From Winogradskyella wandonensis (lineage in GTDB: Bacteria; Bacteroidota; Bacteroidia; Flavobacteriales; Flavobacteriaceae), in assembly GCF_004346845.1 (NCBI RefSeq), contig NZ_SMGI01000001.1, positions 653,116 to 717,115 of the forward strand: 64,000 nt of DNA. The letters are read 5' to 3'. The position numbers and the translations under genes were made by a program. The stretch's first letter is position 1. Each line of letters opens with the position of its first letter. The notes under the pieces were generated by a model. The model made no database searches and was not told the origin of the DNA. It worked only from the letters and a program-made list of their open reading frames with translations. Below, in pieces: positions 7,481 through 9,223 of this stretch.

Positions 7481-9223
7481 TTAAACGTCTAGTCCAAAAG
7501 TTTTCTTTAGGAGGTCTATATTAGGGTTTTTCTCTTTTAGTTTTTGATATTTTTCTTGCGGTGTAAAAGCATACTTTTTAGCAACTTCTTCATTCACAGT
7601 AATTTTAAGATGAAGGTCGTAATTTTTACACGCTTTTCTAAGATAGGCTAGAAGTGGATATTGTGCGCGTTCCAATTCAATCTTATTGGTGTTATTGGAA
7701 TAGGTGATGCAAATTGCAGTATCGTCTAGCTTTGGCACCTCCATTTCCATTATAGAAGCCATTATCTTTTCACCTTTTTTATGAAGTGATTTTATATAAG
7801 CGTTCCAAGCATCTAAAAATTGTTCTTGAGAGACAGGTTCTTTCGGTAAATTTTCCTCGTCGATAACAACATCCATTTGCTTAATTAGATGCTCTTTTTT
7901 CTCACGGATACTTTTAAGCGAAAGTCCAGATGTAACTTTTGTCGGATTATTTATAGATAGTTTGGGTAGCGGTATTGATTCCTGAGGTTCACTATGTTTA
8001 GTAATCTCCGTTGTATTCGTATTTAATTTTAAAGTTTCTCTTTCTTTAGTAGGTTCTGATTGTTGTTCTGATTTAGATTCAGGTTTTGCCACAGGTATTG
8101 GGACAATTCCTTTAGCTTTAAAATAAGAAGGCGGAATTATGTAATGTCTGCTATTTTTTTTTTCTCCATCGAAAGTGATAGAGGCCAATTGCATTAAAGC
8201 TAACTCAACAAGCAGTCTTTGGTTTTTACTGTTTTTATATTTTAAGTCACAGTCGTTAGCAATGTCAATACCTTTAATTAGTAAGTTCTGAGAGCATTTC
8301 TGAGACTGCTCTATATATTTGGTTTTTGTGTCGTCTCCGACTTCTAGAAGTTCTATAGTTGATGGGTTCTTGCAAACCAATAAGTCTCTAAAATGTGAAG
8401 CTAAACCAGCAATATAGTGATGTCCGTCGAATCCTTTTGAAAGAACCGTATTAAAATGAACGAGTAATCCGGGAATCTTATTTTCTAAAATTAAATCTGT
8501 ACTTGTAAAATACGTTTCGTAATCCAGAACATTTAGATTTTCTGTAACCGCTTGGCGTGTTAAATTTTTACCAGAAAAACTAACCACACGGTCAAAAATA
8601 GACAATGCATCTCGCATAGCGCCATCTGCTTTTTGAGCGATAATATGCAAGGCATCGTCTTCGGCCGTGATACCTTGTTCTTCTGCGATGTATTTAAGAT
8701 AGTCTTTGGCGTCTTTTACCGTAATTCGCTTAAAATCAAAAATTTGACAACGAGAAAGAATCGTAGGAATTATTTTATGCTTTTCTGTAGTTGCTAAAAT
8801 AAAAATACAATGCTTTGGTGGTTCTTCTAGCGTTTTAAGAAAAGCGTTGAATGCAGCTTGGGATAGCATATGAACCTCGTCAATGATATAGACTTTATAT
8901 TTACCGACCTGTGGTGGAATACGCACTTGGTCTGTTAAATTTCTTATATCGTCAACTGAGTTATTAGAGGCGGCGTCTAGCTCAAAAATATTAAAGGCAA
9001 AATCTTCATCTTCACTTGTAAGACCATCGCTATTTATCATTTTAGCTAGGATACGAGCACAGGTAGTTTTACCAACACCACGCGGTCCAGTAAATAACAA
9101 AGCTTGGGCCAAGTGATTATTTTCAATAGCATTTAAAAGCGTATTTGTAATAGCCTGCTGACCCACAACATCTTTAAATGTCTGAGGTCTATACTTCCTG
9201 GCCGATACTACAAAATGTTCCAT
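7481..9223 (-). CDS. dnaX: DNA polymerase III subunit tau/gamma
   Basis: This 580-residue clamp-loader ATPase opens and loads the sliding clamp. The AAA+ domain carries Walker A GPRGVGKTT (residues 46-54), Walker B/DEAH-like IIDEVHMLS, and the SRC sensor motif in TILSRCQIFDFKRI. The collar domain ends near residue 350 (LLVELALMQLAS). A proline/glutamate-rich linker (about 375-440) leads to the tau-specific C-terminal part. Two oddities stand out. The four zinc-binding cysteines expected between Walker A and the ELDAAS motif are absent (residues 64-78 contain none). A run of ten A residues at codons 354-357 is flanked by stops in both other frames. It heads the operon dnaX-lipoprotein-miaE. 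Confidence 0.96.
   Translation of the reverse strand: MEHFVVSARKYRPQTFKDVVGQQAITNTLLNAIENNHLAQALLFTGPRGVGKTTCARILAKMINSDGLTSEDEDFAFNIFELDAASNNSVDDIRNLTDQVRIPPQVGKYKVYIIDEVHMLSQAAFNAFLKTLEEPPKHCIFILATTEKHKIIPTILSRCQIFDFKRITVKDAKDYLKYIAEEQGITAEDDALHIIAQKADGAMRDALSIFDRVVSFSGKNLTRQAVTENLNVLDYETYFTSTDLILENKIPGLLVHFNTVLSKGFDGHHYIAGLASHFRDLLVCKNPSTIELLEVGDDTKTKYIEQSQKCSQNLLIKGIDIANDCDLKYKNSKNQRLLVELALMQLASITFDGEKKNSRHYIIPPSYFKAKGIVPIPVAKPESKSEQQSEPTKERETLKLNTNTTEITKHSEPQESIPLPKLSINNPTKVTSGLSLKSIREKKEHLIKQMDVVIDEENLPKEPVSQEQFLDAWNAYIKSLHKKGEKIMASIMEMEVPKLDDTAICITYSNNTNKIELERAQYPLLAYLRKACKNYDLHLKITVNEEVAKKYAFTPQEKYQKLKEKNPNIDLLKKTFGLDV
8154..8163 (-). other. A10 slippage-prone run in dnaX
   Basis: The coding strand reads GA(10)T across codons E354-K-K-N357. 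One extra A in the mRNA gives GAA AAA AAA AAA TAG, a stop at once, for a 357-residue product. One missing A gives five new codons and then TAA, for a 361-residue product. Either product ends just after the collar domain, where a gamma-type subunit would end. Thermus thermophilus dnaX makes gamma by transcriptional slippage on an A run. That slippage happens here is inference. Confidence 0.6.

Follow-up and report, generated by a model that had tools for sequence, protein, structure and literature searches.

Can a run of ten adenines just past the collar-encoding part of dnaX allow Winogradskyella wandonensis to make a short clamp-loader protein beside the full-length one, and would it be the RNA polymerase or the ribosome that slips there? 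The locus that raises this question was analyzed within a 64,000-nucleotide stretch of the genome (hereafter the window, to which positions refer unless another label is given). It has the following features:

7481–9223, minus strand: dnaX coding sequence, an ORF whose unslipped product is tau (580 aa)
8180–8560, minus strand: collar (domain III), residues 222–348, placed by PF12169 and by modelled helices to residue 347
8156–8185, minus strand: synonymous-site freeze over codons 347–356 (nine of ten; codon 351 varies), from codon columns of 28 species
8164–8183, minus strand: RNA stem-loop of 7 bp abutting the run, from predicted fold and conservation
8177–8183, minus strand: 5' arm of the hairpin, CUCUAUC
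8171–8176, minus strand: loop of the hairpin, ACUUUC
8164–8170, minus strand: 3' arm of the hairpin, GAUGGAG, with a 0-nt spacer to the run
8154–8163, minus strand: putative A10 slippage run, codons 354–357, from the sequence
8151–8153, minus strand: UAG ending a 357-aa product if one A is added; also in the frame of a −1 ribosomal shift
8137–8139, minus strand: UAA ending a 361-aa product if one A is lost or two are added
7481–8150, minus strand: tau-only part (flexible linker and C-terminal region), from an AlphaFold model

The dnaX product contains the Pfam domains DNA_pol3_delta2 and DNAX_ATPase_lid, and E. coli gamma/tau was found as a PDB sequence match over residues 4–269 (E 1e-57). According to the alignment, a cysteine-cluster stretch of E. 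coli gamma/tau, presumably its zinc module, is absent from DnaX at residues 64–78 (8990–9034). The PF12169 match to the collar is weak (21.0 bits against a cut-off of 24.4; a second run placed it just above the cut-off). The AlphaFold model has a mean pLDDT of 76 and a pTM of 0.48, with blocks of 82–93 across residues 241–350. In this model the last collar helix comprises residues 335–347, the linker at 383–436 is of low confidence, and helices and strands are present from residue 436 onward. The A10 run starts about seven residues past the last collar helix, and the predicted short products end 10 and 14 residues past it; the preliminary description of this DNA, which had put the break at about nine residues, was therefore near the modelled values. 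The collar is retained in the predicted short product.

On the plus strand the run is seen as T10 at 8154–8163, corresponding to A10 in the mRNA within the codons GAA AAA AAA AAT. Its placement at codons 354–357 in the preliminary description was exact, and the outcomes predicted there were reproduced: UAG follows the run after 0 codons if a base is added (357 residues), and UAA after 5 codons if one is missing (361 residues). The 2.96-Mb genome contains 11 runs of at least ten A's on both strands (14 overlapping matches), of which just two lie on the sense strand of a long ORF, namely dnaX and a 966-aa sensor-kinase-like ORF. The occurrence of A10 in dnaX is well above chance. A third run, in an 80-aa ORF, was discounted. 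The 966-aa ORF has the domains Reg_prop, Y_Y_Y and His_kinase and carries its A10 at about codon 334 (L143:2001-2010; G000:C2:151790-151799, minus strand), where either slippage or chance may account for it.

We searched 31 genomes of the genus, and in 28 of them, W. wandonensis included, dnaX was readable across the site; the others gave paralogue matches only (G001), a partial gene (G009) or a contig end inside the run (G012). The G012 assembly breaks inside the dnaX run (G012:C18 end and G012:C26 start; L030), as a hard homopolymer would cause it to do. All 28 genes keep the run, 27 as A10 and one as A11 (L020). Codons 355 and 356 are AAA in every one of them and never AAG, whereas all 16 other invariant lysine columns mix AAA and AAG; the avoidance of AAG that had been suggested for close relatives thus withstands the comparison. 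At the protein level, E354, K355 and K356 are invariant across the genus. Residues 1–360 include 265 invariant degenerate codon columns; a single codon is used in all 28 species in 16 of these, and nine of the 16 are codons 347, 348, 349, 350, 352, 353, 354, 355 and 356. Relatedness alone is not the cause of this freeze, because the rest of the gene would then be equally frozen. The freeze spans the hairpin and most of the run, reaching about 20 nt 5' of the run.

Sampling the family at one genome per genus (110 genomes, of which 109 matched and were all examined) gave a run of A9–A13, mostly of ten, in 108 of 109 genera. Conservation of the run in relatives from Flavobacteriia, for which the preliminary description had called for an alignment, therefore holds in both the genus and the family. 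The sole genus without the run (L340) has a frame 0 that ends GAA AAG TAA and a tau tail in the −1 frame; perhaps it has switched to ribosomal −1 frameshifting, or else its assembly is in error.

The two nearby stops are conserved as well. They were scored in 89 family genes with tau in frame (90 minus L317, whose ORF ran off the stretch). In the frame entered by adding an A, a stop occurs within 0–2 codons in 85 of 89 genes; in the frame entered by losing one, the stop is at 5 codons in 62 genes and no farther than 6 codons in 80. Both stops are close (at most 2 and at most 6 codons, respectively) in 86.5% of the 89 genes, against 8.0% of 26,982 N-terminal and 8.6% of 16,985 tail control codon positions in the same genes. 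Outside this set, 136 of the loci numbered L032 and above that have a run of at least nine could be scored for both stops; in 121 of them neither stop is farther away than 9 codons, and in 108 neither is farther than 6.

The genomic reading frame of the tau tail varies among relatives. In the 108 family genera it is 0 in 90, +1 in 15 and −1 in three; one +1 assignment (L332) rests on a contig end, and the counts without it are 90, 14 and 3, while in one frame-0 genus (L344) the open tail has only 77 codons. The tau part is out of frame in 17 of 107 genera, so that tau itself would need slippage there. Flavobacterium and Chryseobacterium are among the relatives with tau out of frame, and for the split genes L042 and L044–L049 tblastn gave a second match that picks up at the run in a different frame. 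On a single-gene FastTree tree of 298 N-terminal sequences, the tau frame of 266 genes (L030, L087 and L332 dropped) requires at least 34 changes, with 16 changes within the family sample; for exact A10 genes alone (n = 208) the minimum is 23. The sets partly overlap (L039 and L289 are apparently one record), which adds no changes. Ten groups with two or more members are uniformly +1; groups of a single genome number 23 for +1 and six for −1, and mistakes in sequencing or assembling the homopolymer may account for these single-genome differences. That +1 outnumbers −1 agrees with slippage in which A's are mostly gained, as is reported for Thermus in the relevant passages of PMC5009743.

The first reading missed a hairpin directly 5' of the run. 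The 33-nt stretch upstream of the run folds at −7.5 kcal/mol (z −2.1). Throughout the genus this upstream stretch is within the most stable 5% of its own gene's windows (28/28), and the hairpin beats synonymous recoding (p < 0.05) in 27/28. The corresponding numbers for the family are 70/108 and 61/108 genera. An adjacent stem, defined as at least six consecutive paired 3'-arm bases ending 0–2 nt before the run, was found in 79 of 108 genera; among control windows, 1615 of 17,832 have one (9.1%). Its commonest form in the family, CUCUAUCA-CUUU-UGAUGGAG, has 8 bp and a 3' arm touching the run (36 of 99 rows), and 25 of the 79 genera have the stem without the canonical sequence. Non-canonical genera total 54, of which 17 are in the most stable 5% and 13 beat recoding; both of their p-value sets are shifted overall (KS 6e-13 and 1e-10), relatedness not being controlled.

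Covariation was scored over the 99 genera that share the codon phase at which the run begins. Paired substitutions are found mainly at three inner pairs, e.g., CTCCATTG/CAATGGAG and CTCTGTCA/TGACGGAG. In 58 distinct rows the paired fraction is 70.0%, against a mean of 65.0% and a maximum of 68.3% in 1000 shuffles, and there are 34 double changes against a column-shuffle maximum of 32. This excess is real but modest, with relatedness not controlled.

The hairpin is not universal. Outside the family, recoding p-values below 0.05 were obtained for 30% of 71 named loci and for 38% of the 29 loci L112–L140, and for 2 of the 36 loci L150–L209, mostly from other classes, which is the background level; slippage outside the class would thus have to work without the hairpin. 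Downstream of the run, the 33-nt window beginning 3 nt past it is within the most stable 5% in none of the 28 genus genes and in 3 of the 108 family genera, and positions 8118–8153 fold at −0.1 kcal/mol. An Rfam scan gave one match, away from the site and below the gathering score (E 4.7). An intrinsic terminator was rejected: the hairpin precedes A's and not U's, and on the other strand the T run comes before the hairpin.

The distribution of the run was also studied across Bacteroidota. The named-genome set comprised the best 80 of 593 confirmed candidates and is biased to close relatives; in it the closest named matches were a Flaviramulus MAG (74%) and a Flavobacteriaceae MAG (73%). A run of at least nine within 140 codons past residue 335 was found in 71 of these 80 loci, in one of them (L081) far down the linker. 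The run occurs in all three codon phases, both in the named Bacteroidota loci and in the family genera. From a phylum sample of 148 genomes (146 matched), 89 were examined besides W. wandonensis, i.e., 29 returned loci and 60 chosen ones (the seven remaining from the same class and about one per genus of the rest). The run was present in 29/29 of the former and in 36/56 of the latter, four of the 60 having had no usable alignment. A homopolymer search did not find it in the Bacteroidaceae loci or in several other lineages; L073, L074, L078, L091 and L099 (Bacteroidaceae and other Bacteroidales) have no long A run in the linker. On the tree, the presence of the run changes at least 14 times. 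In nine genomes (G163, G058, G175, G093, G054, G090, G124, G128 and G074), eight of them from family f15, the best match to DnaX leaves out the P-loop and begins at residue 70–75, possibly owing to an insertion or intein.

We consider it likely that the site serves as a cassette for programmed transcriptional slippage, from which the gamma form of DnaX results. The proposal in the preliminary description that gamma arises by slippage is supported by the conservation of the sequence; slippage by the polymerase, its stimulation by the hairpin, and the production and use of gamma are what we infer. While the polymerase copies A10, the 9–10 bp RNA-DNA hybrid would consist entirely of weak rA:dT pairs. 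The nascent hairpin of 7–8 bp, with its 3' arm reaching the start of the run, would form at the upstream edge of the hybrid in the fashion of an intrinsic terminator and may help to melt it, so that the transcript could realign by one or more bases. Transcripts with A10 (or 10 ± 3n) would give tau of 580 aa, and the remaining ones would reach UAG immediately or UAA after five codons, giving gamma of 357 or 361 aa that ends just past the collar. If every frame is made, the tau tail would be free to drift between genomic frames, and in relatives with tau one base out it is the unslipped transcripts that would give gamma.

Transcriptional slippage is favoured because the run exceeds a 7-nt ribosomal slip site and is found in all codon phases, because stops are kept in both frames when a −1 ribosomal shift needs only one, and because a hairpin adjoins the run on its 5' side with no 3' structure in the tested window. 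The evidence thus favours hairpin-assisted polymerase slippage over −1 ribosomal frameshifting of the E. coli type. Programmed −1 frameshifting on an A_AAA_AAA heptamer, as in E. coli dnaX and with the UAG as the gamma stop, appears unlikely to us, although the heptamer is present in frame inside the run, the shift would be equivalent to one extra base and lead to the immediate UAG, and a GGAG precedes the run. Among the 33 of 36 tRNA genes that were typed, the sole lysine tRNA is tRNA-Lys(UUU), so the tRNA set is compatible with this route. However, the length of the run is held at about ten and not at seven, the GGAG abuts the run and lies inside the hairpin, the downstream window is structured in just 3 of 108 genera, and stops are kept also in a frame that a −1 shift would not enter. 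Furthermore, AAG, which the passages of PMC5009743 on this point describe as the stronger bacterial site, is unused in the genus, and an upstream hairpin juxtaposed to an A6G site attenuates −1 shifting in a 70S system, according to the summary of results in PMC6321510.

A mixed or lineage-dependent mechanism, in which both polymerase and ribosome slip and +1 ribosomal slipping is helped by the refolding hairpin, is in our opinion quite improbable. It would accommodate the retention of stops in both frames, the background level of the hairpin in most loci outside the class and, from the same summary (PMC6321510), the stimulation of +1 shifting by upstream hairpins in a 70S system; however, no observation requires it, and nothing separates it from polymerase slippage.

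Least credible of all is that there is no recoding; A10 would then follow from a conserved E-K-K-N where the genome is rich in AT, and the hairpin from conservation of the protein sequence. The invariance of E354, K355 and K356 agrees with it, but codons are frozen at the site and mixed elsewhere, the run is kept in every codon phase, the hairpin outperforms synonymous recoding, and 17 of 107 genera in the family encode tau in another frame; the split-gene clades contradict it unless every one of them is a sequencing error. Chance or AT-richness was rejected against the genome run counts, the codon freeze and the stop controls, and a decaying dnaX against the open reading of 28/28 genus genes.

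How does the site compare with known systems? Larsen is said to have found in 2000 that dnaX of Thermus thermophilus undergoes transcriptional slippage on A9. The markers of the Thermus type are mRNAs of variable A number and gamma in an amount about equal to that of tau. The W. wandonensis gene has in common with it a sense A run of at least nine, a single tau ORF, close stops in both other frames and gamma that is expected from slipped mRNAs. It differs from the Thermus gene, whose slippage is described in passages of PMC1088944 and PMC5009743, in having A10, a conserved 5'-adjacent hairpin, a run about seven residues past the collar and a tau-tail frame that varies among relatives; slippage here is predicted.

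The preliminary description knew of no report in Bacteroidota and spoke of a new lineage, which was too strong. The passages of Antonov et al. (2013; PMC3711429) on split dnaX describe 17 such genes in 12 genera, nine of them with ten A's, and propose transcriptional realignment; three Chlorobi with shorter runs are named there, and the nine A10 species may include Bacteroidota. These split genes share the run length and the proposed mechanism with the site studied here and match its tau-out-of-frame relatives. According to the same passages, all 17 carry a −1 frameshift at the DNA level, whereas dnaX of W. wandonensis is in frame, and the text on split dnaX does not mention a hairpin. A stem-loop that stimulates transcriptional slippage is attributed to a Roseiflexus IS in a passage of PMC5009743 (citing Penno, 2015). 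Both there and here a short-loop stem lies directly 5' of the motif, with 6 bp in Roseiflexus and 7–8 bp in our case; however, according to that passage the Roseiflexus site is T5C5 in a transposase and loses one base, whereas here A10 lies in a replication gene and slipping is expected both ways.

As in E. coli, gamma would come from the same gene as tau and end past domain III, which is a prediction in our case. The SD-like stimulator of E. coli is spaced from the slip site; the GGAG that abuts the run in W. wandonensis has a different spacing and may be accounted for by the hairpin. The E. coli signal is described in a passage of PMC3711429 as A_AAA_AAG with an upstream SD-like stimulator and a 3' stem-loop, whereas there is no G in the W. 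wandonensis run and no 3' stem-loop in the 33-nt window tested.

Among the titles and abstract beginnings of openly licensed PMC literature, no paper was found that deals with slippage in dnaX of Flavobacteriaceae or with a hairpin at such a run in dnaX. As far as this literature was searched, what is new is that the in-frame form is widespread in Bacteroidia, that a hairpin adjoins the run and that the frame has flipped repeatedly. To our knowledge, hairpin-assisted slippage in dnaX would be without precedent among cellular genes.

We are inclined to think that the family and patches of the other Bacteroidia use hairpin-driven slippage in dnaX and make all frames from it, with a tau-tail frame that is nearly free and has flipped at least 23–34 times, mostly to the frame that one added A restores. 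That the site has been conserved for so long indirectly suggests a use for the short form. It is proposed that one gene gives both the long and the short clamp-loader protein by means of a stutter site. Annotators will see dnaX as broken or truncated in a sizeable share of the family, though the gene is probably intact. If the proposal is true, programmed RNA-polymerase slippage would belong to the permanent equipment of a replication gene in much of a major phylum, beyond Thermus, and dnaX would offer a natural example of a core coding region whose frame drifts as its decoding does not depend on frame.
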